NCBI GenBank assembly: GCA_035559535.1
Contig: DATMBG010000006.1
Coordinates: forward strand, 1 to 64,000
Length of the DNA stretch: 64,000 nt
Direction of reading: 5' to 3'
Origin: Candidatus Limnocylindrales bacterium
GTDB taxonomy: Bacteria; Moduliflexota; Moduliflexia; Moduliflexales; JAUQPW01
The notes below the pieces were generated by a model, which saw only the letters and a list, made by a program, of their open reading frames with translations, was not told the DNA's origin and did not search any database. Below, piece after piece: positions 48,164 to 64,000 of this stretch. A program made the position numbers and the translations under genes. Positions within the stretch are counted from its first letter, which is position 1. The number at the start of each line of letters is the position of its first letter.

Positions 48164-48179
48164 TTTTATTGGTTTCCTT

Positions 48180-49763: not shown

Positions 49764-49778
49764 ATATCTTCTTTGATT

Positions 49779-50774
49779 TTATTCTATATGGGTAAGTCCT
49801 GTCGCAAGCAATAATTGAATCACAGGAACTCCATTTTCAACTCTTTCCTTCTCCATACGTGTCCAATAAAGCCAGCTATCTGGATATCGCGCAACATAAT
49901 ACTCCAATTGTGTGAAGTAATTCTGGACAATTCCTTTGAAGACTTCCTCATCTTCTTGCTGGACTTTGATAGGTTCCTTAAAAACAAAATGATGGGTTCC
50001 GTCTTCCCGTCGGATTACAAAGCTTAGAACTATAGGCGCACCGCTTTTTGCAGCCATAAGAACAGGTCCAAGCGGCGCTTTCAGCTTGACATTAAAGAAG
50101 TTGACTAAGGTGAATTTTTTTCCTAGAGGTCCGTCCCCGGCTGCACTGATAACTCGATTTTCTGCCAGGGATCGATACTGGTTTATAACTGCAGAAACCA
50201 GGGATTTTGAGGAGGTAATAATCTGGAAATTTCCTCGTTCTTTCCAGATCGAAGATCTGAGGTCTAAGATTTTCTGGGAAATCCAGGGACTTGCCCCTTT
50301 CGTCCCTGTTAATACCAGGATAGGACTCATTTTGTAGCCTTTATAGGTCAGATAAGTAGCTATCAGATTGGCAGAGCTAAAATGAAAATTTACTCCTACA
50401 ACACCTTTCCCTTCGGCTAAGGCCTGATCTAGATAACTTATCCCTTCATTGCTACAGGCGTCAAAATATTTTTTATAATCCTCTCTCGCCATAATAAAGA
50501 GATCGGTATAGGCCTTTTGTTTATGGATATAAATACCCCGTACAACGGCTTTTTTCTCCTGAAAATTAAGTTTATCTCCCAAAACCATATCCAGATTATG
50601 GATTATTTTACGTTTTTGTTTAGAAGGGACAAACAAGTAATGGATACTACCCAGTAAGGTGGCTATCTGATAACCGATCCGGAAAGGTAAAACTTGAATT
50701 AGCCAGCGATAGGGATAATAAACCAGAAGTAAAGAAAAATCCTTAAGATAGCGCTTTATGGGGAATTCTTTCAT
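49779..50774 (-). CDS. LpxL/HtrB-family acyltransferase, variant motif (copy 1)
   Basis: A 331-residue protein of the lipid A/lysophospholipid acyltransferase family, with an N-terminal membrane helix (LLLVYYPYRWLIQVLPFRIGY) and GKGVVGVNFHFSSANL where the family has the HX4(D/E) catalytic dyad. Here the motif reads H131-FSSA-N136, so the acidic partner is replaced by Asn. Later blocks (AAGDGPLGKKFTLVNFFNVKLKAPLGPVLMAAKSGAPIV) match the family. It could be an acyltransferase with altered chemistry or an acyl-binding protein. Closely related copies lie at 50802-51773 and 57776-58756. Confidence 0.85.
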   Translation of the reverse strand: MKEFPIKRYLKDFSLLLVYYPYRWLIQVLPFRIGYQIATLLGSIHYLFVPSKQKRKIIHNLDMVLGDKLNFQEKKAVVRGIYIHKQKAYTDLFIMAREDYKKYFDACSNEGISYLDQALAEGKGVVGVNFHFSSANLIATYLTYKGYKMSPILVLTGTKGASPWISQKILDLRSSIWKERGNFQIITSSKSLVSAVINQYRSLAENRVISAAGDGPLGKKFTLVNFFNVKLKAPLGPVLMAAKSGAPIVLSFVIRREDGTHHFVFKEPIKVQQEDEEVFKGIVQNYFTQLEYYVARYPDSWLYWTRMEKERVENGVPVIQLLLATGLTHIE

Positions 50775-50801
50775 AGAGTTTGACTGAGCTCACCAGAGGT
50801 T

Positions 50802-51773
50802 TTAATCGGTTATTCCGGGAATTACCTGCATTACAGGAACTCCATTCTCAAAACCTTCCTTCTCCATGCGTGCCCAATGGGTCCAATAATCGGGATGCTG
50901 GGAAATATAATGCTCTAAATGCCGGATATATTCCTGAACAGCTCCTTTTAAGATTTCTTCCTCCTCTCCCTCGACCTGAATCGGTTCTTTAAAGACGAAA
51001 TATTGCGTAAAGTCTTTTTGCAAAATCACAAAACCAGGAACTATCCCTGCGCCGCTTTTTGCAGCCATGAGGACAGGTCCCAGAGGAACTTTTAGTTTTA
51101 CATTAAAAAAGTCTACCAGAGTAAATCTTTTCCCAAGTGCCCCATCTCCCGTTGCATCGATAATTTGATTCTGCTTTAAGCACTCATACTGAATTCTAAC
51201 TAAAGACAACAGAGATTTCAAGGAGGTAATAACTTGATAATTTCCCCGTGTTTTCCAGATGGAACTTTTAATACCCAGGACCTTTTGTGAAACCCAGGGG
51301 CTGGTATCCTTGAGATGGGTGGGCAATACCAGTAAAGGAGTTATTTTATAACCTCGATAAGCTAAATAGGCTGAAACCAGATTAACAGGACCAAAATGAA
51401 AGGTGACGACTACTAAACCTTTACCTCGAGATAAAACTTCGTCTATATAATTCAGACCTTCTACCTTACAGGCCCGGAAATACTTCCCATAATCTTTTCT
51501 TCCCATAATAAAAAGATCCATGAGGATCCTGTGTTTAGTAGCATAAAAACGTTTTAAAATAGTTTTCTTTTCTTGAAGGTTAAACTTATCGCCAAAAATG
51601 AGATTTAAGTTAGTAAGAATTTGATGTTTTTGTTTAGGGGAAGCGAAGAGATATTGGATATTTCCCAATAAAGTAGCCAGCTTATAGCTAATCCGAAAGG
51701 GTAAAGTCTGGATTAGCCAACGATAGGGAAAATAAACCAGCAAAAGCAGGAGGTTTTTGAAATACAGCTTCAT
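50802..51773 (-). CDS. LpxL/HtrB-family acyltransferase, variant motif (copy 2)
   Basis: A 323-residue paralogue of copy 1, located 27 bp upstream of it on the same strand. I set the start at 51773 (MKLYFKNLLLLLVYFPYRW), aligned with the other copies. The longer frame from 51932 only adds repeat-derived residues, including a translated palindrome. The dyad position reads H126-FGPV-N131, again lacking the acidic residue. The family block ATGDGALGKRFTLVDFFNVKLKVPLGPVLM is conserved. Tandem duplication with copy 1 is evident; function is as uncertain as for copy 1. Confidence 0.84.
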   Translation of the reverse strand: MKLYFKNLLLLLVYFPYRWLIQTLPFRISYKLATLLGNIQYLFASPKQKHQILTNLNLIFGDKFNLQEKKTILKRFYATKHRILMDLFIMGRKDYGKYFRACKVEGLNYIDEVLSRGKGLVVVTFHFGPVNLVSAYLAYRGYKITPLLVLPTHLKDTSPWVSQKVLGIKSSIWKTRGNYQVITSLKSLLSLVRIQYECLKQNQIIDATGDGALGKRFTLVDFFNVKLKVPLGPVLMAAKSGAGIVPGFVILQKDFTQYFVFKEPIQVEGEEEEILKGAVQEYIRHLEHYISQHPDYWTHWARMEKEGFENGVPVMQVIPGITD

Positions 51774-51892
51774 GTTAATGATCCGGAGCGCCCTTGAACC
51801 CGGTACCCGGTTTTGTGAAATCGTATATGCACCTGTATAACAGAGGTTACGGCTTAAGACCTTAACACAGGCACAGCATGCTGTGTCCCTGC

Positions 51893-51965
51893 TACTTTGT
51901 AAAGTTAATGCTGTGTAACGCTCTGCCCTCACCCCAGGCCCCTCTCCTACGCTGCGGAGAGGGGT
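51893..51965 (-). repeat. Dispersed 75-bp palindrome-plus-tail repeat, copy B
   Basis: Read on the minus strand it matches copy A across both the CCCCTCTCC...GGAGAGGGG palindrome and the TTAACTTTACAAAGTA tail, with substitutions in between. Confidence 0.8.
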
Positions 51966-52068
51966 GAGAAGATCTCTGGGTTAGCTTCTGGTGAACCCCT
52001 TCTTCCGAAGCTTCGGGAGAGGGGTGCTTTGGGAGTTGGCCTGTTTAAGGACTAAATCTCTATTCGTC

Positions 52069-52235
52069 CTATTCGATGAGATTCGGTCTCAACAAATTGT
52101 TCTGCCACCCCTTGTACCCATATAACCGATCATTTGGATGCTCGGCAATCCCATAGGCGAGTTAGATAAATACTCCCGGGCAATACCCTTTAGCCTACCT
52201 GATCGGTCAAGTGCATAATTCCTGCCAGAAGTGGA
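52069..52235 (-). pseudogene. Decayed 3' end of a further LpxL-like acyltransferase
   Basis: Minus-strand translation gives LKGIAREYLSN in one frame and LAYGIAEHPNDRLYGYKGW then a stop (52069-52071) in the next. Joined, these align with the C-terminal stretch of the neighbouring acyltransferases (FKGIVQNYFTQLEYYVARYP). One frameshift (near 52153-52167) and upstream stops break the frame. No more 5' portion is readable, so it is a short relic. Confidence 0.5.
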
Positions 52236-52355
52236 TTTTTATGGATTGCCTACTTCATAAGTTCAAGGGTAAGAATCGAAATCTTCGGGAACTTTGAACG
52301 TGTCTTTAAGGCAAGGGGAAAATGGAGGTTTTAAGTGGGATCGGAGAGATCAATG

Positions 52356-52411
52356 AAAAAGCCTAACTTCCTCCCTCCTGTCCTACAGAACCAGGAAGAT
52401 GAAAGTTAGGC
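52356..52411 (-). terminator. Rho-independent terminator of the Cys-rich protein gene
   Basis: On the minus strand GCCTAACTT pairs with AAGTTAGGC (plus positions 52403-52411 and 52361-52369), with additional inner pairing, directly followed by TTTTT (52360-52356). It lies 29 bp beyond the stop codon of the 120-residue secreted protein. Confidence 0.8.
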
Positions 52412-52439
52412 CGATAAAAGCTACTTTATAAAGGTTGAA

Positions 52440-52802
52440 TTATCGTGGAACACATAAACAAACGAAGTTTTTCTGGGCATACTCTTTCCCGTTAAAAGGC
52501 ACCAGGCAATTAAAGGTATCAGTTACATTCTTACCGGGAACATAACCTGAAGAATATTGTCTTCTCCCCCTCTTTGCTGATGTGGGTACACCGCAGACAA
52601 ATAGCTGAGCCGTTGCACCTGACTTACTTCCTTCAGCTCCCGCATAAACCGGAGCCTGACCGGCTCTGGTACAGGTCGTATCGCAATTGGTTCCAGGAGG
52701 TGCAGCTAACCAACTATAGTTGGCAGCCCAAACCAGATCTTCTACTAAAGAAATTCCTGTCAGTAAAACAGCTAAAGAGGCAATTAAAATTTTCGTTTTC
52801 AT
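52440..52802 (-). CDS. Small secreted six-cysteine protein, copy 1
   Basis: A 120-residue protein with a signal peptide (1-27, ending LVWA). The mature part has six Cys (40, 44, 70, 99, 115, 117) in the order NCDTTC, FVCGV, NCLVPF, VCLCVPR, suggesting three disulfides in a compact extracellular domain. GTNCDTTC, SGYVPGKNV and PFNGKE are the conserved blocks shared with the copy at 52992-53348. I do not recognise the family and assign no function. It has a good ribosome site (GGGAGG) and its own terminator. Confidence 0.85.
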   Translation of the reverse strand: MKTKILIASLAVLLTGISLVEDLVWAANYSWLAAPPGTNCDTTCTRAGQAPVYAGAEGSKSGATAQLFVCGVPTSAKRGRRQYSSGYVPGKNVTDTFNCLVPFNGKEYAQKNFVCLCVPR

Positions 52803-52935
52803 AGCTAACCTCCCTTTTTAGAGAAAAATTATAAAAACTGCCCACCTTCGATCCCTTTATAAGAAGACGCACAAATAACTTTAAGGTTTCTAGGCTGATA
52901 AAGAAATGTCTCCTGGGCTTACTTCTCATTAACCT

Positions 52936-52969
52936 CCCTTGTAGGAAAAAATTTCTTTCCCTACAAGGG
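52936..52969. other. 10-bp hairpin between the two Cys-rich genes
   Basis: CCCTTGTAGG (52936-52945) pairs with CCTACAAGGG (52960-52969). It lies in the spacer downstream of the second Cys-rich gene, without a T-tract on the minus strand. It may cause partial termination or stabilise the upstream message. Confidence 0.55.
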
Positions 52970-52991
52970 ATTTCCTCCTTAGAAGGATAAA

Positions 52992-53348
52992 TTATCGAGG
53001 AACACACAAGCAAACAAAGCTTTGTATGACGTTTTCTTTTCCATTAAAAGGTACATTGCAGGTCGTTGTTGCCACTACATTCTTACCGGGGACAAATCCG
53101 GAGGAATATTGTTGTCTCTGTCTCTGATATATTTTAACATCCACGCCACAGACGTAAAGTTGCGTAGCTGCACCTGATTTGCTCCCCTCGGTTCCAGAAT
53201 ACACCGCGACCTGACCGGCTCTTCCGCAAGTGGTATCACAGTTGGTTCCCTGGGCAGGTATCCAGGTGTAATTGGCGGCTAAAGTACTCTGGGAGAATAA
53301 AAAAATTCCTACCACCAGCAAAGAGGGTACTAAAACTTTGGTTTTCAT
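52992..53348 (-). CDS. Small secreted six-cysteine protein, copy 2
   Basis: A 118-residue tandem paralogue of the downstream gene: signal peptide 1-24 (STLA before ANYTW) and six Cys at 37, 41, 67, 97, 113, 115 in identical spacing pattern. The central part (VKIYQRQRQQYSS) is Arg/Gln-rich, as in copy 1 (KRGRRQYSS). AAGGAGG lies 6 nt before the ATG, and a good promoter lies about 80-110 bp upstream. High predicted expression and small size suggest an abundant secreted protein; function unknown. Confidence 0.86.
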   Translation of the reverse strand: MKTKVLVPSLLVVGIFLFSQSTLAANYTWIPAQGTNCDTTCGRAGQVAVYSGTEGSKSGAATQLYVCGVDVKIYQRQRQQYSSGFVPGKNVVATTTCNVPFNGKENVIQSFVCLCVPR

Positions 53349-53427
53349 AGGAGCCTCCTTTTTATCCGAAAGGTTAACAGTTGTTTTACTAACTTTTGTT
53401 AATTAAACGGATTATTACGGAGGCTAG

Positions 53428-53456
53428 ATACTAACGTTTTTTTATTCTTCCGTCAA
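53428..53456 (-). promoter_or_regulatory. Sigma-70-type promoter for the Cys-rich protein genes
   Basis: On the minus strand TTGACG (53456-53451), a 17-bp A-rich spacer, and TAGTAT (53433-53428). This is five of six and four of six matches to the consensus with ideal spacing. It is correctly placed for the gene starting at 53348. Confidence 0.55.
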
Positions 53457-53499
53457 TCAAAAAGTTTATAAATTTTCTCCGGGTAACGGTATTTTTTCT

Positions 53500-55512
53500 T
53501 CAAAACCGCCAGGTCATTGACGCAAAAACCAATCTATCCAGGACGGCAACTTCACTTTCAGCATGGGGATCAACAAGATTTTGACCCGTTACGGCGACTT
53601 CAAGGGTATCATTCAAGAAAGTTTTAGCCACTCGAACATCCAATCGGGTGTATGGAGGCAAGGAAATAGTTGGATCGGAGAGGGGCGCAGTATGATCCAC
53701 GTAGCTTAACTGAAGATTGGTCGAAAACCCATTTGGAAACTTAGCCCTCAATCCCAGATTGACTTTATGCCGGGGCGTTGACTTATCCAGATCTCCGGGG
53801 CGCAAAGCGCCCTCATCGCTAATATCAATAAACTCATAGGTATAATTGGCTCTTCCCTGTAACCAGTCTGTTAAAGGGGTCATGACCTCTAATTCAACTC
53901 CCTTGGAAAAACCATTAAATCCATCACTGATAAAAGTAGCTCGTGTGACCCCTGGAGGAGGTGGTGCAGGAGCGCTCCTGGGGAATTTGTCGATATCATT
54001 ATAGTAGAGTTCTACGTTAAGGCGGAGTTTATCCCACAGATAAGTCCGGTAGCCTATTTCATAGGCGGTATTAATTGCAGAATCCAGGTTTGGGTTGGAA
54101 AGTCGAGCAACGATGGCACCGGTTGGTAGAGTTACCCGGGTTTCATTAAAGACCTCAAATTGGGAGGGGGGTAGGATGGCCTGTCCCATAGCAAATCGAA
54201 AGGTATGATTCTTCCAGGGAGTATAAAGGAGAGTTCCTCGGGGGGCCACATCGGTTCCAGAAAGAGTATTATCCTGAACCCGTATTCCGGCAACCAAAGT
54301 TAACTGATCTGATGGTTTGTATTCATCCTGAATATAGAAGCCCAAGGCGCTATCCTGGCGACTGTGGATATTACCCTGGGGAGCATCCAAAAAATCCAGA
54401 ATATAATCTCCACCGAATACCAATTGATGTTGGGGGAGGAAAGAGAAGTTATATTGAAATTCTGCACCCAAAGTATCCATATCAAACTCTCGAATCCCGG
54501 AGACGGGATTCAAGAAGATGAACTTTGCGTTGGTGACATTCCAGTATCCTTGAACAAAAAGAGTTGAAGTGGGAGAAAACCGATTTTCATACCAACTCTG
54601 TAGGAAAAAACTTTCGAACTCTTCATGACCCGGTTCTCCGGCCGGATTTGCAGGAACGGGAAAACTTCCGGATCGGTCTCCGGTAAGATAACCTGTGGAG
54701 AGATGAAAATCTGAATCTTCAGACAGGTGATATTTAGCCCGAAAGGTCGCCTTGGGAATACGTTTTGCGTCCTCTAAGGGAGTTCCCTGCAGGCTCTTAT
54801 CGAAACCGGTATCCTGTTCATAACTGGTGGAGAGCCGATAGGAAAATTTATCATTATACACCTGATCATAAATGAGCGTTGCGAGGCCTAATTCCTCATT
54901 ACCTCCAAGGGTAGAGGAGAGAGTCCATCCCTTATACTTTTCTGGATCTTTCGTAATGATATTAATAACCCCTGTAAAGGCATTAATCCCATACAAGGTA
55001 GAACCGGGACCTCGAAGGATTTCAATGCGCTCGATATCCTCTAAAGAAAGGGGGAAGGTTCTCCAGAAAGTTCCACCCTGTTGATGGAGAAAAATAATAC
55101 GTCGATCGATCATCACGAGCATGGTTCTGGCGGTTTCCGAAGCAAATCCACGGGCTGACACTACAGAGCGAGGCCCATCCAGGGTTATAACATCCATACC
55201 CGGGATCATCCTGAAGAGATCTATAACATTCGTAGCTCCAGACTGTCGAATATCGTCAGCGGTGATAACGGAAACTGCTGAAGGGGATTCACTTAGATGC
55301 TGGAGTCTCCGGGAACCGATGGCAACAAGTTGCTCAACACGAAAAAACTCTTCTTCCCGGAAGATCGATCTATCCTCAGAAATAACCTGAGCGAGTATCT
55401 GGGGAGTTAAGAGATAAGAGATAAAAGATAAAAGAAAAAAAGTTCCTTCTAACAGCCGGACCCAAAAGGTCTCGCATTTCCAAGTAGAATGGCCTGGTCG
55501 TATGCTTTTCAT
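53500..55512 (-). CDS. TonB-dependent outer-membrane receptor
   Basis: About 670 residues. I start at 55512 (MKSIRPGHSTWK), giving a signal segment (GTFFLLSFISYLLTPQILAQ); the longer frame begins in a palindromic repeat. The plug domain reads AVSVITADDIRQSGATNVIDLFRMIPGMDV, then ARGF and RIEILRGPGSTLYGINAFTGVINIITK. The barrel ends ASMTWRF with the terminal aromatic used by outer-membrane proteins. No canonical TonB box was located with certainty. The ligand is unknown; the plug resembles vitamin/siderophore-type receptors. It shows the host is a diderm. Confidence 0.92.
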   Translation of the reverse strand: MKSIRPGHSTWKCETFWVRLLEGTFFLLSFISYLLTPQILAQVISEDRSIFREEEFFRVEQLVAIGSRRLQHLSESPSAVSVITADDIRQSGATNVIDLFRMIPGMDVITLDGPRSVVSARGFASETARTMLVMIDRRIIFLHQQGGTFWRTFPLSLEDIERIEILRGPGSTLYGINAFTGVINIITKDPEKYKGWTLSSTLGGNEELGLATLIYDQVYNDKFSYRLSTSYEQDTGFDKSLQGTPLEDAKRIPKATFRAKYHLSEDSDFHLSTGYLTGDRSGSFPVPANPAGEPGHEEFESFFLQSWYENRFSPTSTLFVQGYWNVTNAKFIFLNPVSGIREFDMDTLGAEFQYNFSFLPQHQLVFGGDYILDFLDAPQGNIHSRQDSALGFYIQDEYKPSDQLTLVAGIRVQDNTLSGTDVAPRGTLLYTPWKNHTFRFAMGQAILPPSQFEVFNETRVTLPTGAIVARLSNPNLDSAINTAYEIGYRTYLWDKLRLNVELYYNDIDKFPRSAPAPPPPGVTRATFISDGFNGFSKGVELEVMTPLTDWLQGRANYTYEFIDISDEGALRPGDLDKSTPRHKVNLGLRAKFPNGFSTNLQLSYVDHTAPLSDPTISLPPYTRLDVRVAKTFLNDTLEVAVTGQNLVDPHAESEVAVLDRLVFASMTWRF

Positions 55513-55563
55513 CAACTTATTAAGTAAAGAAAGACACTTAAATTCAGAAAGGCAGTAACCCTC

Positions 55564-55592
55564 GTAGGGGCATGGCGGTGCCATGCCCCTAC
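55564..55592. repeat. Dispersed GTAGGGGC palindrome, copy 2
   Basis: A 13-bp perfect stem GTAGGGGCATGGC / GCCATGCCCCTAC with 3-nt loop, in the 110-bp gap between the TonB receptor start and the ketosynthase stop. Confidence 0.85.
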
Positions 55593-55621
55593 ATAATCGG
55601 TTAGTAGCCAAGGGAACTTAT

Positions 55622-57424
55622 TTATCTCCGTTTGCCAGGTTCCAGCCAGCAGCGTTCCCGCTGCCAGGGATAAGAGGGCAGTCCGACGCACTGCCCGTCG
55701 GTTGGATAGAGCCAGCTCCAGTCGATGGAATACCCCAAGGTATAGAGGGCACCCAGAGACCGAAGCATGGTCATTCGGTCTTCTTTTCCATCGAGAGGGG
55801 ATCGATCCATGATTCCTTTCTGGTCATTAGAGTTTGAAGTCTTTCGGCCTGAAGAGATATTCGGGTGAACTTCTCCCCGAAGAAAAATCTCCAGACACCG
55901 GATGAGTTCCTCCCGCGAGCGAAATACCAGGGCCAGGCGGTAGTCGTGATGACTTCGCCGTACACTGGCCGTATAACACAGATCTCGTAACGAAACGGCA
56001 GAGCCAGTATTTCCAACTCCTAAAAAGCTCTGATATGCCTGTACAAGAGCCTGAAGAGCTTTCTGGCTGTGTGCGGATAACGGAAGCAGGTACGGTGGAT
56101 CCAAAGGGAGGTCTTTCTCCTGTTTATAGGCTTCTGGAACTCCTGGAGTTCCCTCTAAAACGGCATGGGCGTTGGTTCCCCCGAAGCCAAAGGAACTCAC
56201 TCCGGCGAGAGTTGGACCGGATTCCTGGGGCCAGGGGCCCAGAGTTTGTTGAACTAGCAGTAGGAGCTCCTCAAAAGGGATATGTGGATTAGGTTTGTGG
56301 AAATGTAAGCTCGGGGGGAGCTCGCGGTGTCTAAGGGCCAATACGGTTTTAACCAGACCGGCGATACCTGCTGCGGTTTCCAGATGTCCAATATTGGTCT
56401 TGACTGAACCTATAGCACAATAGTGTCCGGGAGGACGGTCTATTGCAAGGACAGTCCCCAGTGCCTGGGCTTCAATGGGATCCCCCAAGAGGGTTCCTGT
56501 ACCATGGGCTTCAATATACTGAACCTGACCCGGTGAAACTTCGGCCTGCCGGTAAGCTTCTCGCAACACCTCTTCCTGAGCCCACCGGTTAGGAGCCGTG
56601 AGTCCGTTGGTGCGTCCGTTATTATTGATAGCACTTCCCCGAATAACAGCATAAATCGGATCATGATCGGTCAGGGCGTTTGACAGGGGTTTTAAGACCA
56701 CCATACCGGCCCCTTCACCACGAACATAGCCATTTGCCCCTGCATCAAAAGCCTTGCAACGACCCTCGGGAGATAGAGCCCTTGCTTTACTGAAGCCAAT
56801 GGTAAGTTCTGGTGATAGGATGACGTTTACCCCCCCGGCCAGGGCAAGGGAAGATTCATGGGTCCAGAGACTTTGGCAGGCAAGATGGACGGCAACCAGG
56901 GAGGAGGAGCAGGCCGTATCTATGGAAATACTGGGTCCTCTAAAATCAAAGAGATAAGAAATACGATTCGATGCAATGGATAATAAGTTACCGGTATTCG
57001 TGTAAGCATTGATGAAATCAGGATTGCTTAATTGCATCCGACCGTAATCTCCGGGTCCAATTCCAATAAATACCCCCGTTCGGGTACCTGCCAGCCGATC
57101 TACCACCTGTCCGGCATCTTCGAGGGCTTCCCAGGCTACCTCCAACAAGAGTCGTTGTTGGGGATCCATTCGAGCAGCTTCCCATGAGAGGATCTTGAAA
57201 AAGTGATAATCAAATTGATCTATCTGCTCCAGAAAGCCCCCCCAACGCGTGTTCATTTTGCCCGGTGCTTTAAGATCGGGGTGGTAAAAGGCTTGCAAAT
57301 CCCAACGATCCGCCGGAACTTCTGTGACGGCATCTACTCCGTCCCGGAGAAGCCGCCAGAAAGCCTCTAGATTTCCGGCACCCGGGAAACGACAAGCCAT
57401 ACCGATAACCGCGATAGGTTCCAT
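55622..57424 (-). CDS. Polyketide-type ketosynthase with linker, AT domain absent
   Basis: A 600-residue type I PKS-like ketosynthase: PIAVIGMACRFPGA at the start, C172 in DTACSSS, H307 in EAHGTGT, H347 in KTNIGHLE, so the active-site triad is intact. The KS-to-AT linker follows (about 430-520). Then, without an acyltransferase domain, comes the post-AT linker GYSIDWSWLYP and LPSYPWQRERCW (582-593). An AT has thus been lost or is supplied in trans. The protein would extend an acyl chain held on one of the two carrier proteins. It is the last gene of the lipid cluster, 27 bp after an ACP gene. Confidence 0.92.
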   Translation of the reverse strand: MEPIAVIGMACRFPGAGNLEAFWRLLRDGVDAVTEVPADRWDLQAFYHPDLKAPGKMNTRWGGFLEQIDQFDYHFFKILSWEAARMDPQQRLLLEVAWEALEDAGQVVDRLAGTRTGVFIGIGPGDYGRMQLSNPDFINAYTNTGNLLSIASNRISYLFDFRGPSISIDTACSSSLVAVHLACQSLWTHESSLALAGGVNVILSPELTIGFSKARALSPEGRCKAFDAGANGYVRGEGAGMVVLKPLSNALTDHDPIYAVIRGSAINNNGRTNGLTAPNRWAQEEVLREAYRQAEVSPGQVQYIEAHGTGTLLGDPIEAQALGTVLAIDRPPGHYCAIGSVKTNIGHLETAAGIAGLVKTVLALRHRELPPSLHFHKPNPHIPFEELLLLVQQTLGPWPQESGPTLAGVSSFGFGGTNAHAVLEGTPGVPEAYKQEKDLPLDPPYLLPLSAHSQKALQALVQAYQSFLGVGNTGSAVSLRDLCYTASVRRSHHDYRLALVFRSREELIRCLEIFLRGEVHPNISSGRKTSNSNDQKGIMDRSPLDGKEDRMTMLRSLGALYTLGYSIDWSWLYPTDGQCVGLPSYPWQRERCWLEPGKRR

Positions 57425-57451
57425 TTTCTCCCGTCCTCTATAGCTTTTCCA

Positions 57452-57757
57452 TTAAGTACGGGCGATCTGCTGGTCGCTCCTACCGTTCCAGGATTGTTCC
57501 AGGATCAGATTAATCAGGTCTTCAACGGTACTAACTTTTGTAAAATCCACCGAATCCAGCCGGATAGAAAATGCTTTTTCTATAACAATAATCATCTCTA
57601 CCGTATCCAGGGATTTGATACCCAGATCTTCTTGCAAGCGGGTATCCAAAGTAAGGAATTCAATATCTTCGGGATTCAAGATATCCCTTAAAAGGGTCCG
57701 AAGATTTTCAAAAACCTCTTCCTTGGATAAGGTTTGATTTTGTTTTACAGATGACAT
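57452..57757 (-). CDS. Acyl carrier protein
   Basis: A 101-residue carrier with a Ser for 4'-phosphopantetheine in DLGIKSLDTVEMIIVIEKAF (the usual LGxDSL motif, here with Lys before Ser). The length and acidic helices are those of a freestanding ACP. It lies between an LpxL-like acyltransferase gene (18 bp) and the ketosynthase gene, and is the most likely partner of both. No phosphopantetheinyl transferase is encoded in the window. Confidence 0.92.
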   Translation of the reverse strand: MSSVKQNQTLSKEEVFENLRTLLRDILNPEDIEFLTLDTRLQEDLGIKSLDTVEMIIVIEKAFSIRLDSVDFTKVSTVEDLINLILEQSWNGRSDQQIART

Positions 57758-57775
57758 GTAGCCCCTTCCTTTCTA

Positions 57776-58756
57776 TTAAGTTTCAAAAGGTTTTCGTGTA
57801 ACCAGCCGTATCAAAGGTATACCACCCTCAAACCCTTCTATCTCCATCCGATTCCAATAACCCCAATGGGCCGGATATCGGGAAACATAATGTTCCAGAC
57901 GTTGAATGTATCTCTGAACGGCCATCTTCAAGGTTTCTTCCTCTTCATTAGCTACTTGAATCGGTTCTTCAAAGATAATATGGTGCGCATTATCTTTTCG
58001 TCGGATTACAAAGTTCGGAACCAGGGCTGCTCCGGTTTTTGCGGATAAAAGAGCAGGTCCAAGGGGAACTTTCAGTTTTACATTGAAAAAATCGACCAAG
58101 ATAAATCTTTCCCCCAGAGCTCCATCTCCGGCTGCACTGACAATATAGTTCTGTCTTAGATGCTGATATTGGGCTACAACCATGTAGGTAAGAGATTTCA
58201 GGGAAGAAAAAATCTGAAAATTCCCGCGTTCTTTCCAAATAGAATGCTTGATATTTAGAACTTGTTGGGAGAGCCAGGGATTAACTCCTTCGATAGGAGA
58301 CTGCAGGACCAGAAAACCGACGATTTTTTTATAGCCCTTATAAAGGGCAAAAGGTGGAATCAGGTGAGCAAAACCAAAGTGGAAGTTGAGTCCGATCATT
58401 CCCTTTCCTTGGGATAAAACCTGATCCACATAATCCAGACCTTCTATACTGCAAATCTGAAGATAATTTTTGTAATCTTTTCTTCCCAGGATAAAAAGAT
58501 CCACAATCTTTTTCTGTTTCTCAACGTAGAAGTCCCGCAGGATGGTTTTTTTCTCCCGAGTATCGAGTTTATTACCGAAAACTAAATCAAGATAGGAAAA
58601 GAACCGATGTTTTTGATGGGAGGAAAGAACTTTGTATTGGATATTTCCAAACAGAGTAGCTATTGAACAGCTTATTTGAAAAGGTAAAGCCTGAACGAGC
58701 CAGCGGTAAGGGAAACAGACCAATAACAGAAAAAAGTCTTTAAAATATTGTTTCAT
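57776..58756 (-). CDS. LpxL/HtrB-family acyltransferase, variant motif (copy 3)
   Basis: A 326-residue paralogue of the genes at 49779 and 50802, embedded in the carrier-protein cluster. It has the same N-terminal helix (LLVCFPYRWLVQALPFQIS) and conserved block (AAGDGALGERFILVDFFNVKLKVPLGPALL). The catalytic-dyad position is H126-FGFA-H131: the acidic residue is replaced by His. Its placement between the P450 and ACP genes suggests it accepts the modified acyl-ACP and transfers the chain to a lipid or sugar, if it is active. Confidence 0.86.
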   Translation of the reverse strand: MKQYFKDFFLLLVCFPYRWLVQALPFQISCSIATLFGNIQYKVLSSHQKHRFFSYLDLVFGNKLDTREKKTILRDFYVEKQKKIVDLFILGRKDYKNYLQICSIEGLDYVDQVLSQGKGMIGLNFHFGFAHLIPPFALYKGYKKIVGFLVLQSPIEGVNPWLSQQVLNIKHSIWKERGNFQIFSSLKSLTYMVVAQYQHLRQNYIVSAAGDGALGERFILVDFFNVKLKVPLGPALLSAKTGAALVPNFVIRRKDNAHHIIFEEPIQVANEEEETLKMAVQRYIQRLEHYVSRYPAHWGYWNRMEIEGFEGGIPLIRLVTRKPFET

Positions 58757-58815
58757 TTTTCTTTCTGTTTATCGTCTCTAACCAACCTTTTCTATAAAAA
58801 AGGTCTCGTTTTGGA

Positions 58816-60210
58816 TTAAGGTACAGGTGTTATGTTGGATTTAAAATCGGTTAACTTGAGATTTAACGAAGGTTTTCTTTTTTCCAGGATTATCCGCATA
58901 CCATATTTAGGTCGTAGCGTCACACTTAACATAATCTGGACAGGATGGTTTGGGACGAGCCGCATCCGCCACCTCTGGGCCAGTGTCGCGATCAAAAGGA
59001 TTCCTTCCATCCAGGCAAAAGACTCGCCGATACACTGTCGGGGACCGGCTCCGAAAGGAAAATAGGCACATCTGGGCAACCTGATTTCTGGTCTGGGAAG
59101 CCACCGCTCGGGATCAAATTTAAAAGGATCGGGAAAATATCGAGAATCATGGTGGGTTACATAGGGACAGATCATAATAACCGAGTCAGCAGGCAAGAGA
59201 TAGTTTTCAATTCTGTAATCCTCAAGAACTCTGCGGCATATCCTCCAGGTTGGCGGATAAAGGCGCATGGCCTCCATAAACACCATCCGGGTATAGGGTA
59301 ACTGTTCCACATCGCTGGCTGTGGGAGGTCTATCTGCCAGAACGGTATCGATTTCAGCGTGAAGTTTTGCCTCCACATCGGGATATTGCGACAATAAATA
59401 CCAGGTCCATGTCAGGGCAAGGGCTGTGGTTTCATGACCTGTTATAAAAAGGGTCATGATCTCGTCACGTATTTGCCGATCCGTCATGCCACTTCCGTCT
59501 CCCTCCACGTCCTGAGCTTGCAATAGCATAGAAAGCACATCACCTGGATCTACGCCGCTGATCCGACGTTCATTAATCATTTTATGGACAAAGGTATTTA
59601 CTTGATTCAAGGCTTTCTGACGGCGATGGACACTGGGCAGTGAAAGTTTCTCTAACAATCTATAAAAGGGTCCTGGAGTGAGGCCCCACTTTATGAACAG
59701 GTTGAAGGTCTCACTGATCTCCCCCGTTTCTGATTCAAGATCCCTATCAAAGAGTGTTTTCCCGACAATTCTTAAAGTCAGGTGGGTCATTTCCTCTAAT
59801 ATATCCAGATTCATACCTTCTTGCCATCGTTGCTGCATTTCCAGGCTGTATTTTGTCATTACCTCTGCATAAGTCAAGATACGCTGTCGATGAAAGGCCG
59901 GTTGTATAAGCCGTCGTTGGCGAAGGTGGAAATCACCCCTGCTATAGAGCAATCCTGTTCCCATCACCTGTCGGGCAGGTGGGGTTTGTCCTTTTTTTTC
60001 GAAATTTCGGTTATGTCTTACCAGTACGTCTTCGAGATGATCCGGGTGATTCAGTAAGAAAAAATTCCTGGGGCCAAGCCTGAAATGGACGATATCGCCA
60101 TAGTTGCGGATAGCTTTCATTAAAAAGCCAATCGGATCACGCCGATAAGAAAAAAGATGACCGATGAACGGTAGACCCACTGGACCAGGAGGATATCGGA
60201 TTATCGTCAT
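58816..60210 (-). CDS. Cytochrome P450 (fatty-acid hydroxylase-like)
   Basis: A 464-residue soluble P450. The I-helix oxygen motif GHETTALALTW, the K-helix E-x2-R in EAMRLYPP, PERW (FDPERWLPRP) and the haem loop FGAGPRQCIG with Cys393 are all present. The sequence opens RYPPGPVGLPFIGHL. It resembles class-I bacterial P450s related to fatty-acid/CYP110-type enzymes, so hydroxylation or further desaturation of the chain is plausible. No ferredoxin or reductase gene is adjacent. AAAGGAG lies 6 nt before the ATG, and the carrier gene upstream is 24 bp away. Confidence 0.93.
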   Translation of the reverse strand: MTIIRYPPGPVGLPFIGHLFSYRRDPIGFLMKAIRNYGDIVHFRLGPRNFFLLNHPDHLEDVLVRHNRNFEKKGQTPPARQVMGTGLLYSRGDFHLRQRRLIQPAFHRQRILTYAEVMTKYSLEMQQRWQEGMNLDILEEMTHLTLRIVGKTLFDRDLESETGEISETFNLFIKWGLTPGPFYRLLEKLSLPSVHRRQKALNQVNTFVHKMINERRISGVDPGDVLSMLLQAQDVEGDGSGMTDRQIRDEIMTLFITGHETTALALTWTWYLLSQYPDVEAKLHAEIDTVLADRPPTASDVEQLPYTRMVFMEAMRLYPPTWRICRRVLEDYRIENYLLPADSVIMICPYVTHHDSRYFPDPFKFDPERWLPRPEIRLPRCAYFPFGAGPRQCIGESFAWMEGILLIATLAQRWRMRLVPNHPVQIMLSVTLRPKYGMRIILEKRKPSLNLKLTDFKSNITPVP

Positions 60211-60234
60211 GTAAATCTCCTTTAGAGGTAGATC

Positions 60235-60561
60235 CTAGGCTTTTCCAACTAAATATCGAGCAAGGACCTCAATGTTAGGATAATCATACACAAGGGTGGG
60301 AGGAAGTCGACATCCCAACCAGTCTTGTAACTCACCGGAGAGAATTGCGGCTTGCCTGGAATCCAGGCCATAATAAGCAAAAGGTTGTTGCACCTCAATA
60401 TCTTGAGGATCAACTTCTGTCAATTCAGAAAGCTTAGAGATTAACCAGGTTCGAATGGCTTCCTCATTTTGAGGTTGTTTTGGAGGATCTATCTGGTTGT
60501 TGGAGCCCTTTCCATGAGAAAAACCGGATGATTTACTATCTTTCGGATTTAGAATTCCCAT
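60235..60561 (-). CDS. PKS-type acyl carrier protein
   Basis: A 108-residue carrier with an unstructured N-terminal tail (about 1-32) and a PKS-like carrier domain: SELTEVDPQDIEVQQPFAYYGLDSRQAAILSGEL, whose Ser in GLDS bears the phosphopantetheine arm. It differs clearly from the ACP at 57452-57757, so the cluster uses two distinct carriers. It lies between the desaturase genes and the P450 gene. An AGGAGGGAAG site precedes the ATG. Confidence 0.9.
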   Translation of the reverse strand: MGILNPKDSKSSGFSHGKGSNNQIDPPKQPQNEEAIRTWLISKLSELTEVDPQDIEVQQPFAYYGLDSRQAAILSGELQDWLGCRLPPTLVYDYPNIEVLARYLVGKA

Positions 60562-60583
60562 TTTTTTCTTCCCTCCTGTGTAC

Positions 60584-60603
60584 GGGCGTACGGCCGTACG
60601 CCC
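60584..60603. repeat. Dispersed GGGCGTACGG palindrome, copy 3
   Basis: A perfect 20-bp palindrome followed by CCTAC, sharing the plan of the copies at 4383 and 55564. It lies between a desaturase gene and the carrier gene. Confidence 0.8.
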
Positions 60604-60621
60604 CTACTAGAAGGGGTAGCC

Positions 60622-61629
60622 TTAATAGCCCGTCTTAGCCTCCGCTATCATACGCGATGTGGGGATTTTAACATCCCAGGCAAGACCCACCATTTCAAAG
60701 ATGCGAATGATCCAGGCGCTTAAGTCGGGTTCCCACCATCTTAATCCATGTTTTGCTGAACTGGGGAAAGCGTGATGATTGTTTTGCAATCCTTCCCCAA
60801 ACGCGATGAGAGCGACCCAAAAATTATTCGCACTGTAATCATGGGTATTGAAAGGACGACTGCCAAAGGTATGGCCTATTGAACCAACAGCCCAACAGGC
60901 CTGGTTTACCAGGAAAATTCGAACGAGCCCTCCCCACAGAAATCCCTGGGAGATCCCGGTCCAAGTCCCCGTTAGAATCCCTCCTAAAACAGCCGGGATA
61001 ACTAAACCCAGGGATACCCAAACAAAATAGAGTTGATTTATCCTAAAGAGGGTAGGATCCCGAAGAAGATCCGGTGCGTAATAGAGGGAGTTGGCGATTT
61101 TATCGGAGAACATCCAACCTATATGGGCATGCCACAATCCCCGAACTAAGTTCCATATTCCTTTTCCCTGGAGATGGGGTGAGTGGGGGTCACCTGGCTG
61201 GTCACTGTAAGCATGATGGCGGCGATGGGAAGCTACCCAGAAGAGGATAGGGCCTTGAGCAGCCATAGAACCGAGGATGGCCAGGATGATCCGTAAGACT
61301 CTACCAGCTTGAAAGGCACGATGCGCAAAATAGCGGTGGAAGCCGACCGTAACACCTATCATGATGGCCGTATACATGCTGACGAGGATTCCCGCCTCTA
61401 CACGATCAATTCCATATTTCCAGGCTAAAATCATGGCTACAACAAACCCTAGAAAAGGTATGACTATCACCGCCAGCGCGATACTTCGTTGAAGTCTTCG
61501 GGCAAAAGGGCTTATGACTATGACTCCTGGAATCTTAGGTAAATTCGTAGAAGTTTTAAACGGGGGTCGGAAATTACTTTCACCTGATGAGGTAGTGGGT
61601 TTACTATTTTCTGAATTCTGGATTTCCAT
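60622..61629 (-). CDS. Acyl desaturase-like membrane di-iron protein with altered ligands
   Basis: 335 residues from ATG 61629, chosen because GGGAGG lies just upstream; an ATG 27 bp earlier also exists. It belongs to the acyl-CoA/acyl-lipid desaturase family, with His boxes HRYFAH (H98, H103) and HRRHH (H135, H138, H139) and four hydrophobic membrane segments. The third box reads QNNHH (Gln282 for the first His), and the NSxxH element reads GSIGH (Gly249 for Asn), so two of the usual di-iron ligand positions are lost. It may be inactive, structural, or catalyse a different reaction. The intact paralogue is upstream. Confidence 0.9.
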   Translation of the reverse strand: MEIQNSENSKPTTSSGESNFRPPFKTSTNLPKIPGVIVISPFARRLQRSIALAVIVIPFLGFVVAMILAWKYGIDRVEAGILVSMYTAIMIGVTVGFHRYFAHRAFQAGRVLRIILAILGSMAAQGPILFWVASHRRHHAYSDQPGDPHSPHLQGKGIWNLVRGLWHAHIGWMFSDKIANSLYYAPDLLRDPTLFRINQLYFVWVSLGLVIPAVLGGILTGTWTGISQGFLWGGLVRIFLVNQACWAVGSIGHTFGSRPFNTHDYSANNFWVALIAFGEGLQNNHHAFPSSAKHGLRWWEPDLSAWIIRIFEMVGLAWDVKIPTSRMIAEAKTGY

Positions 61630-61668
61630 TTTTCCTCCCTTCTCGATAGGATCCATTCTGGGTTTGAT

Positions 61669-62643
61669 CTAACGACTCTTTCTGGACTCTACGAGCATAC
61701 GCGCTGTGGGGACTTTGACATCCCAGGCTAAACCTATTCTCTCAAGGATACGGATAACACAACCATTCCAGTCAATCTGCCACCACTTTAACCCATGTCT
61801 GGCTGAGCCTGGGAAAGCATGGTGGTTATTGTGCCAACCTTCACCGAAGGCAAGAAGGGCAATCAAGAAATTGTTTCTACTTTCATCACGACTATGGAAG
61901 GGACGGGTACCACAAACATGGGTAATGGAGTTAACACTCCAGGTGGTATGGTGAACCAAAAAGGTCCGTATGAGTCCTCCCCATAAAAATCCCTGGAGGG
62001 CTCCTATCCAGGTCCCTGTCAGAATTCCACCCAGAAGAGTGGGAATAAGGAGGCCCAGGAACACCCAAACAAAATAAAGCCGATTAACTTTAAAGAGAAG
62101 AGTATCTCGAAGTAAATCGGGTATATAATGGCTCCAATCGGTAACTTCGTGGACAAATAGCCATCCGGTATGGGCATGCCATAGCCCACGGAGCAAACCG
62201 GAAATTCCATCCCCATGGAGATGAGGTGAATGAGGATCGCCTGATTGATCGCTGTAAGCGTGATGGCGCCGATGAATAGCTGCCCAAAAAAGGACAGGCC
62301 CTTGAGCAGCCATGGAACCGAGGATGGCAAGAATAACCCGTACTACCCGGTTGGTTTTGAAAGCACGATGGGAAAAATGCCGATGGAACCCCACTCCAAT
62401 TCCAATTATGGTGGCCGCGTACATACCGATGAGAAGACCTAACTCCACAAGACCCAGAGCATATCCCCAGAATAGAATAGTGGCAGCAAGGAACCCGAGA
62501 AAGGGCGTAATGACAACCACCAGGGCAATAGTTCGTTCGAACTTTTGGGCAGGTAAACTGGCCATTGCTATCCCAGGAAACTCAGATGGCTTTGAAGGGG
62601 TTTTAAATTTTGCCTGGCTTCCTAATTTAGTGACCTCTGACAT
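61669..62643 (-). CDS. Acyl-CoA/acyl-ACP desaturase (membrane di-iron)
   Basis: A 324-residue desaturase with a complete ligand set: HRHFSH (H87, H92), HRRHH (H124, H127, H128), N238 and H242 in NSITH, and HNNHH (H271, H274, H275). Family members introduce a cis double bond, and some (JamB-like) make a triple bond, in acyl chains attached to CoA, lipid or ACP. Carrier genes downstream suggest acyl-ACP here. It is the first gene of a probable operon, with AAAGGAGG 6 nt before the ATG, and precedes its altered paralogue by 39 bp. Confidence 0.94.
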   Translation of the reverse strand: MSEVTKLGSQAKFKTPSKPSEFPGIAMASLPAQKFERTIALVVVITPFLGFLAATILFWGYALGLVELGLLIGMYAATIIGIGVGFHRHFSHRAFKTNRVVRVILAILGSMAAQGPVLFWAAIHRRHHAYSDQSGDPHSPHLHGDGISGLLRGLWHAHTGWLFVHEVTDWSHYIPDLLRDTLLFKVNRLYFVWVFLGLLIPTLLGGILTGTWIGALQGFLWGGLIRTFLVHHTTWSVNSITHVCGTRPFHSRDESRNNFLIALLAFGEGWHNNHHAFPGSARHGLKWWQIDWNGCVIRILERIGLAWDVKVPTARMLVESRKSR

Positions 62644-63281
62644 GACTGGCCTCCTTTAGGTTTTCTTATTAAAAGGATTTTAATTGCAAAAATCACACTC
62701 TATCTAACCGATGGTCCACTTACTGCCTAAGGTATTGAGAGATTTTGATAGAAAAGATTTGTTTCAGGCAGTGTCCTATTAAACAGGAAAGTAACGAAAC
62801 ACCATACTTACTTAATCCCGTAGAGTAAGTCAACTGGAAAAATACGGAATAATTAAATTAGTTGGTATGAGGTTACTTAGATGCAAAGAGTGAACCATTT
62901 ATTTTAAGGGATAAAAGAAGGCTTATAGCTTATACCCATCCCTATTTCATGGGGTAATTATACGATCCTGGGAATTATAGGACTCCAGTAGGGGTAAATG
63001 TCAAACCGGCTCCTATTTATAGAAAACTTCTTGATACTACCTGTGGAAAGGAATTTTAAAAAGTTGAGATTTCAGTGGCATTCCTTGAGCTTCTAAACAG
63101 TAACCTTCGGTTTCCTGAAGACTGGAAAAAACTTTTCGCAGAAGCTATTTTTACAGGAATTTTATGGCTCTACTCCCTCACCCCCGGCCCCTTTCCTGAA
63201 GCCTGGGGAGAGGGGTATAAATAATTGTTCAAATTTAACTTTACAGAGTATGAGTTATCCCCTTCAATTCAGATACAGACT
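62644..63281. other. Promoter region of the desaturase operon, with dispersed repeat
   Basis: No gene recognised. It should contain the desaturase operon promoter, though no strong -35/-10 pair was found. ACTGCCT (62722-62728) and AGGCAGT (62766-62772) can pair or act as a binding site. Copy C of the dispersed repeat lies just beyond the end of the upstream ligase gene. Confidence 0.55.
63175..63250. repeat. Dispersed 75-bp palindrome-plus-tail repeat, copy C
   Basis: A CCCTCACCCCCGGCCCC...GGGGAGAGGGG palindrome, then a tail CAAATTTAACTTTACAGAGTA matching copies A and B. Here it lies just downstream of the acyl-AMP ligase stop. Confidence 0.8.
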
Positions 63282-64000
63282 TTACTCTTCCAGCACGTTT
63301 AGGCTTCCAGATAGAAATCCGGCCCGGCAGGCATAATGCTGGATTTTGCCACTGGAGGTTTTAGGAATGCTATTTGCTTTAAGTAGCAATACAGCATGAA
63401 TGTGCATTTCGTGATTTTCTACTACCGCCTGTCGAATGCTCCCAACTATTTCCTTGATGCTCCAACGTCTTAAATCATAGGAATGCTCCAGTTCGGCTAC
63501 AATAACGAGTCGTTCTTCACCATTCTGATCTATGGAAAATGCTGCACAGCAGCCCGGGCGTAAAGCCGGATGGCTCTGTTCCACGGTCTGTTCGATATCT
63601 TGAGGATAATAATTACGACCCCCTAGGATGATCAAATTCTTCAGACGACCCGTGACGAACAGCTCCCCCTTCTTCAAGAATCCTAAATCTCCTGTACGAA
63701 GAAAGGGGCCCTCACCGGTATCTGCCAGATAAGCCTTGAAGGTCTGCTTTGTCTCTTCGGAGCGATTCCAGTAGCCTTGAGCAACGCTGGGTCCTGATAC
63801 CCAAATCTCTCCCACCCGGTCAGGTGAACATAGGGTTAAGGATTCTGGATCGACAATAATAATCTTCTGACCCGGTAAAGATCGACCACACCCTATGAGT
63901 TTTTGGGTATCCTTTGTAGAACTATCGAGAGGGGATGCTTCTACTACCTGGTTCTGTTTTAGAGCAGTTCTCAGAACGCTGAGAACCGTGGGAAGGGTTC
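63282..64000 (-). CDS. Fatty acyl-AMP ligase (5' part outside window)
   Basis: The frame stays open to the window edge. Visible C-terminal part of an ANL-superfamily ligase: KLIGCGRSLPGQKIIIVDPE, VGEIWVSGPSVAQGYWN, LRTGDLGFLKKGELFVTGRLKNLIILGGRNYYPQDIE, and the lysine motif KTSSGKIQH. The GRNYYPQDIE element and wording around it are those of fatty acyl-AMP ligases, which activate fatty acids as adenylates and load them onto carrier proteins. It would feed the carriers encoded downstream. An earlier GTG (63815) is internal, not the start. Confidence 0.9.
   Translation of the reverse strand, partial: TLPTVLSVLRTALKQNQVVEASPLDSSTKDTQKLIGCGRSLPGQKIIIVDPESLTLCSPDRVGEIWVSGPSVAQGYWNRSEETKQTFKAYLADTGEGPFLRTGDLGFLKKGELFVTGRLKNLIILGGRNYYPQDIEQTVEQSHPALRPGCCAAFSIDQNGEERLVIVAELEHSYDLRRWSIKEIVGSIRQAVVENHEMHIHAVLLLKANSIPKTSSGKIQHYACRAGFLSGSLNVLEE

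Follow-up and report, generated by a model that had tools for sequence, protein, structure and literature searches.

A fatty acyl-AMP ligase, desaturase and carrier protein operon that may deliver an unsaturated, oxidised acyl chain to an envelope lipid

Introduction

Cassettes made up of a fatty acyl-AMP ligase (FAAL), a desaturase and an acyl carrier protein (ACP) are known from soluble antibiotics and lipopeptides. Here we describe a locus built around such a cassette in a Candidatus Limnocylindrales bacterium, at one end of a stretch of 64,000 nucleotides of contig C6 (DATMBG010000006.1; the whole stretch is called the window below). In this locus the cassette is followed by a cytochrome P450, an LpxL-like acyltransferase, a second ACP and a polyketide synthase (PKS)-type ketosynthase (KS) that lacks an acyltransferase (AT) domain. 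Judging from sequence, we give roughly even odds (a probability of about 0.5) to the reading that this JamABC-like operon supplies an envelope (glyco)lipid with an acyl chain that is unsaturated, oxidised and probably beta-keto.

Alkyne cassettes of FAAL, desaturase and ACP occur widely; in polyyne sets they are joined by two more desaturases, a thioesterase (TE) and a rubredoxin, and some actinobacterial polyyne clusters carry a P450 in place of the latter two (PMC8406139). In the aryl polyene clusters a lysophospholipid acyltransferase has been proposed to attach the chain to a lipid of the outer membrane (PMC8253772).

Results

Gene order and conservation

Eight intact genes lie on the minus strand in the order FAAL–desaturase–desaturase–ACP–P450–LpxL-like acyltransferase–ACP–ketosynthase, all with Pfam matches well above the curated cut-offs. 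They are listed here in that order, together with the one long gap between them; G001 is the only genus sibling that was compared, alongside two order-level relatives, and FAS stands for fatty acid synthase.

63282..64000, minus strand: FAAL, 3' part in the window (PF00501, 220 bits; DIP2-like C-terminal domain)
62644..63281, minus strand: non-coding gap before the desaturase operon, probable promoter region (no open frame; ~81% identical in G001)
61669..62643, minus strand: membrane fatty acyl desaturase D1, 324 aa (PF00487, 82 bits; SCD1-like by phmmer)
60622..61656, minus strand: membrane fatty acyl desaturase D2, 344 aa (PF00487, 81.6 bits; 59% identical to D1)
60235..60561, minus strand: ACP1, PKS-type acyl carrier protein, 108 aa, GLDS motif (PF00550, 55.8 bits)
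58816..60210, minus strand: cytochrome P450, 464 aa (PF00067, 313 bits; ExxR and FGAGPRQCIG haem motifs present)
57776..58756, minus strand: LpxL3, LpxL-like acyltransferase, 326 aa (PF03279, 63.7 bits, cut-off 22.3; HX4H)
57452..57757, minus strand: ACP2, FAS-type acyl carrier protein, 101 aa (PF00550, 36.3 bits; NCBIfam acyl_carrier, 45 bits)
55622..57424, minus strand: free-standing PKS-type ketosynthase, 600 aa (Cys-His-His kept, no AT domain)

Evidence from open reading frames, Pfam and NCBIfam bore out the strand, place and identity of every gene named in an initial annotation, which had been made from the letters and their open reading frames. The FAAL is cut only by the window edge, the full gene running from 63282 to 65108 on contig C6 (608 aa). 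Neighbouring genes from D1 through to the ketosynthase are 12–60 bp apart, with 12 bp between D1 and D2; AAAGGAGG, immediately 5' of D1, is a strong ribosome-binding site, and 638 bp of non-coding DNA separate FAAL from D1. The probable arrangement is therefore an operon of seven genes, preceded by a FAAL whose transcript may be shared with the HlyD-family gene upstream of it. A promoter scan of the gap did no better than on shuffled sequence, and an Rfam search of positions 48000–64000 returned no RNA family.

G001 carries the same genes in the same order, spread across two contigs; the products of the eight are 83–94% identical in amino-acid sequence. Against this sibling seven of the genes have dN/dS values of 0.13–0.24, and ACP2 stands at 0.47 in an alignment that is off at the C-terminal end. 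From these low values we conclude that the eight are real, constrained genes under purifying selection. Neither order-level relative carries the operon; a FAAL–PKS fusion occurs in one of them, unlinked to a desaturase that lies ~110 kb away. The conserved linkage in related genomes that the initial annotation had proposed as a check thus holds within the genus, but not in the two order-level relatives.

An alkyne-type core

The FAAL scores 415-432 bits against the NCBIfam FAAL models, under their equivalog cut-offs, and its nearest solved structures are FAALs. Compared with cyanobacterial FAAL-(desaturase)-ACP-KS loci, identity is ~50-61% for the FAAL, ~40-49% for ACP1 (40-45% against the ACP behind FAAL) and ~50-62% for the ketosynthase. 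For the desaturases we built a tree of 96 sequences, the closest matches among ~85,000 genomes plus plasmid loci, in which FAAL-linked cyanobacterial, burkholderial and actinobacterial desaturases stand in for labelled JamB or TtuB. The grouping with housekeeping enzymes alone that would have spoken against the initial annotation was not what the tree returned: D1 and D2 fall within a clade of 33 rows (support 98/97), 31 of which have a FAAL within ~8 kb, and free-standing desaturases of Planctomycetota, Verrucomicrobiota and Actinomycetota lie outside it. Within the clade, D2 groups (97/95) with a FAAL-linked desaturase of Xanthobacteraceae and with the second desaturase of a polyyne-type cluster of Streptomyces goshikiensis, annotated as FAAL, three desaturases, ACP, hydrolase, rubredoxin and P450. 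D1 and D2 are the only membrane desaturases of the genome and could, as ordinary enzymes of membrane-lipid desaturation, serve the membrane, the cluster being a chance neighbourhood; however, their phylogeny with FAAL-linked enzymes, the 12-bp spacing and the order kept in G001 all argue against this, and we consider it very improbable.

Activation of a fatty acid followed by its desaturation on a carrier, the first half of the pathway, is thus what this core very probably does, with ACP1 as the probable carrier for FAAL and desaturases. Sequence gives no reading of double against triple bonds, and the formation of triple bonds can be proposed only tentatively. These and the other step-by-step likelihoods given below are judgements rather than computed values.

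The locus resembles the JamABC-type terminal alkyne cassette in having a FAAL beside an SCD-like desaturase and a dedicated ACP, in the FAAL-linked clade of its desaturases and, as in many cyanobacterial loci, in the ketosynthase that comes next. It differs in its two desaturases, P450, LpxL-like acyltransferase, FAS-type ACP and AT-less ketosynthase, and alkyne formation would here be a prediction. With the seven-gene polyyne cassette (caryoynencin, cepacin, collimonin, ergoyne, protegencin) it shares the FAAL, the ACP, more than one desaturase and the affinity of D2 to the S. goshikiensis enzyme. The third desaturase is absent (two in the cluster, only two in the genome), and a scan of the neighbouring genes, which covered about 41–71 kb on contig C6, turned up neither a thioesterase nor a rubredoxin. 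Thus, the alkyne-type kinship of the core proposed in the initial annotation stands, on the desaturase tree and on a FAAL and ACP closest to those of cyanobacterial FAAL-ACP-KS loci, but its comparison to a caryoynencin-type polyyne cluster does not.

The locus is also close to FAAL-desaturase(s)-ACP-tailoring-KS loci of Cyanobacteria and Burkholderiales, such as those of Nostoc sp. B(2019) (L043), Pleurocapsa (L049), the Polaromonas JS666 plasmid (L031) and Aquabacterium A7-Y (L086), which share the backbone, its order, a tailoring enzyme between ACP and KS and, often, a decayed AT. They differ in keeping at least an AT remnant, some having a fused ACP or TE, and none was found with an LpxL-like gene. 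Where the window places the P450 and LpxL3, the cyanobacterial loci place cyclopropane-synthase-like (CMAS) enzymes or a protein of weak AurF similarity, most likely a CylC-type halogenase (for CylC loci see PMC8406957). Separately, loci in which an ACP accompanies a FAAL and four consecutive desaturases were seen in Dolichospermum (L040), in L192 (the same gene order, perhaps the same record) and in L195; these are candidates for highly unsaturated acyl cassettes.

A ketosynthase that has lost its AT

The ketosynthase, the only one of PKS type in the genome, aligns with CurL in two blocks: residues 2-533 correspond to CurL 39-577, and residues 542-595 to CurL 883-937. About 305 AT residues have been cleanly excised, with both linkers kept and joined, and the same is seen in G001. 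The catalytic motifs DTACSS, EAHGTG and NIGHLE are intact and dN/dS is 0.19. The nearest relatives are cis-AT ketosynthases behind Nostoc FAALs (62%), in loci ordered FAAL+ACP, P450, PKS, the P450 of which is not orthologous to that of the window (20%). The protein has the Cys-His-His of a cis-AT type I PKS module, with no AT in the same chain. It does not look like part of a trans-AT PKS either: no dedicated free-standing AT was found, the sole AT-family (PF00698) protein of the genome, presumably FabD, lies on another contig (C44) near an ACP gene, and the closest ketosynthases are the cyanobacterial cis-AT ones. A mycolic-acid-like Pks13 route, considered for the matches of ACP1 and the ketosynthase to the Pks13 model, was rejected: CurL-type ketosynthases score higher, and the fused ACP-KS-AT-ACP-TE architecture with FadD32 is absent from the window, where the domains are separate, there is neither AT nor TE, and the second ACP is not fused.

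The initial annotation had placed both the ketosynthase and the acyltransferase ending outside the known alkyne sets. For the ketosynthase this proved wrong: in Cyanobacteria and Burkholderiales a KS commonly stands behind a FAAL–desaturase–ACP cassette. The LpxL-like enzyme, accompanied by a FAS-type ACP, is indeed unusual. We surveyed the AT of the first ketosynthase after such cassettes in loci from these two groups, and found it decayed in about nine of 15 cases. In eight loci (L031, L043, L086/L203, L194, L195, L199, L201 and L202) the AT is shortened, covering 125–238 of 323 aligned residues, with its GHSxG motif missing or altered; six others are intact. The motif reads GRGIG in Polaromonas JS666, GYGVG in Nostoc sp. 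B(2019) and VGGVG in Aquabacterium A7-Y, and GHNVG, GYSMG, GTGLG and GDGTG in four of five further genomes, the fifth being without it. In FAAL–KS loci without a desaturase the AT was full-length in all five cases, one with GYSLG. On the ketosynthase tree the AT state must have changed at least three times along branches with good support: the losses are repeated, and several are independent. Their link to desaturase cassettes is suggestive only, because few loci were sampled and those that are related do not count as independent. In the genus described here the loss has gone furthest: nothing of the AT is left, where the others surveyed keep at least a remnant. We found no description of AT-less ketosynthases after FAAL–desaturase cassettes in the open-access literature, to which the search was confined (paywalled papers lay outside it).

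That the ketosynthase extends the chain is the reading we slightly favour. The alternative is a non-extending enzyme, its AT being gone, that shuttles the acyl chain from ACP1 to ACP2 or hands it to another nucleophile. The repeated loss or decay of the AT in this setting, the lack of a trans-AT in the cluster and the FAS-type ACP2 with its odd KSL motif all suit a shuttle, but both histidines needed for decarboxylative condensation (in EAHGTG and NIGHLE) are intact, and malonyl-ACP from fatty acid synthesis is present in any cell. We regard a shuttle as improbable.

The P450 and the two carriers

The nearest solved P450s are 7wzl and 3dbg. Orthology with the P450s of other FAAL clusters was ruled out (19-25% identity), and one match of 29.5% is in a locus without a FAAL. 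Oxidation of the chain by this enzyme is likely. ACP1, of PKS type, resembles the carriers found behind other FAALs. In ACP2 the phosphopantetheine serine is kept within KSL in place of DSL, in G001 as well. The genome has nine PP-binding matches and two phosphopantetheinyl transferases that could arm the carriers. ACP2 is flanked by LpxL3 and the ketosynthase, a position from which it could carry the extender unit and serve LpxL3 as donor.

LpxL-like acyltransferases

LpxL3 has two paralogues further downstream, which may belong to the same system:

50802..51932, minus strand: second LpxL-like paralogue, HX4N, likely true start ~51776 (PF03279, 73.7 bits; 57% identical to LpxL3)
49779..50774, minus strand: third LpxL-like paralogue, HX4N (PF03279, 65.8 bits; 54% identical to LpxL3)

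The genome encodes a canonical LpxL elsewhere (contig C32, HFGNWE, thus HX4E), and the trio is separate from it and specific to the cluster; among a sample of 385 genomes no homologue of the trio above 107 bits was found outside the genus. Aligned with this canonical LpxL, all three keep the catalytic His and the downstream Asp, and a His or Asn replaces the acidic residue of HX4(D/E). Of the marks of LpxL/LpxM late acyltransferases they have the PF03279 domain and not the motif, which reads HX4H, HX4N and HX4N. His126 and Asp211 of LpxL3 are invariant in the trio and in G001. An AlphaFold2 prediction for LpxL3, run on the three window paralogues, reached a mean pLDDT of 40 and was set aside as unusable.

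In E. coli LpxL the Glu of HX4(D/E) matters (PMC6286764). In VexE of Vi-antigen synthesis a Tyr takes the place of the acidic residue, and the enzyme is active through His and a downstream Asp, moving acyl from ACP to UDP-GlcNAc (PMC9597891); the equivalence of Asp211 to the VexE Asp rests on the alignment with LpxL rather than on a structure. Since VexE is active, the altered motif need not, by analogy, mean a dead enzyme. It points away from the lipid A pathway, and perhaps towards a sugar-nucleotide or glycolipid acceptor. VexE is alike in superfamily, in keeping His and Asp and in its replaced acidic residue, but has a TPR domain that is absent from the window enzymes.

LpxL-like enzymes without the acidic residue of HX4(D/E) were also seen in two distant genomes, L135 (8936-11566) and L136 (6147-7067, 9838-12429), where they adjoin genes for a type I phosphodiesterase of the alkaline phosphatase superfamily and radical-SAM-like genes. 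Three type I phosphodiesterases lie near the trio on contig C6, within 68807-73327 and 77386-79116. Such neighbourhoods possibly represent an unrecognised envelope-lipid system.

Neighbouring genes

A HlyD-family gene (contig C6, 65160-67490) lies directly upstream of the FAAL and is conserved in G001; its product contains many coiled-coil unit repeats (EELVAAVKSAEA...KAKLEE...). On the other side, the ketosynthase is immediately followed by:

53500..55611, minus strand: TonB-dependent receptor (PF00593, PF07715; same place in G001)

These two genes, both kept in G001, are what favours a released product, namely a free unsaturated acid, beta-keto acid or methyl ketone acting as antibiotic or signal, exported via HlyD and perhaps recovered by the receptor, with the LpxL-like enzymes belonging to a neighbouring envelope pathway. 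Characterised polyynes are moreover diffusible (PMC8406139). Yet LpxL3 sits inside the tight operon, 59 bp from the P450 and 18 bp from ACP2, there is no thioesterase, and no ABC or RND partner was seen beside the HlyD gene. We therefore judge secretion unlikely. Delivery to an envelope acceptor by LpxL3 is slightly more probable than not.

Further downstream, positions 52440-52802 and 52992-53348 encode two tandem small secreted proteins of 118-120 aa, mutually 63% identical, with a weak DM9 match; they rank with the most conserved genes in this region (98% identity between species, dN/dS 0.04-0.08). Positions 44891-48202 encode a 1103-aa protein in which a PhoD-like phosphatase is fused to FG-GAP repeats and an ASPIC/UnbV end.

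Discussion

We propose that the FAAL would adenylate a fatty acid and load it onto ACP1, where D1 and D2 would introduce two unsaturations (double or triple bonds) and the P450 would oxidise the chain. The ketosynthase, in the absence of its own AT, would then accept the chain from ACP1 and join it to a malonyl unit that the housekeeping malonyltransferase would have loaded in trans onto ACP2; the resulting beta-ketoacyl-ACP2 would undergo no further reduction. Finally, LpxL3, with a VexE-like His-Asp active site, would pass the chain on from ACP2, the acceptor being a sugar nucleotide or an envelope (glyco)lipid. Both the single extension and the transfer to a lipid, already suggested in the initial annotation, are proposals. 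The best analogy for such an ending is provided by the aryl polyene clusters, which also combine an acyl-ACP synthetase, two ACPs, a KS and an acyltransferase with a proposed anchoring role, but which have no desaturase or P450, contain many more KS/KR/DH genes (KR and DH being ketoreductase and dehydratase), of FAS type where the window has a PKS-type KS, and share no close homologues with the locus (PMC8253772).

Several features weigh against this scheme. The operon lacks a thioesterase, a KR and a trans-AT; ACP2 has in KSL a motif seldom expected at a phosphopantetheinylation site; the FAAL sits 638 bp upstream, perhaps within the HlyD transcript; the P450 may act after transfer; and the LpxL-like enzymes appear to lack, in addition, the Arg partner that the acidic residue has in LpxL. 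The scheme in its most specific form, an alkyne- or diene-bearing beta-ketoacyl chain made on carrier proteins with an AT-free ketosynthase that draws on the housekeeping fatty acid synthase, and anchored to an envelope glycolipid by VexE-like acyltransferases, is doubtful as a whole.

What is unusual here is the LpxL-like enzyme with its FAS-type ACP, together with the complete loss of the AT. The cassette is a well-supported variation on the alkyne-type FAAL/desaturase/ACP family, in a poorly sampled lineage, with an ending not found elsewhere among the loci surveyed. The repeated loss of the AT in ketosynthases behind such cassettes raises the question of where the extender unit comes from, or whether extension has been abandoned. 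An ending on an enzyme of the LpxL superfamily would tie FAAL–desaturase–ACP chemistry to the cell envelope and, if the proposed route is true, alkyne-type chemistry would serve a structural or signalling lipid and not a secreted metabolite.

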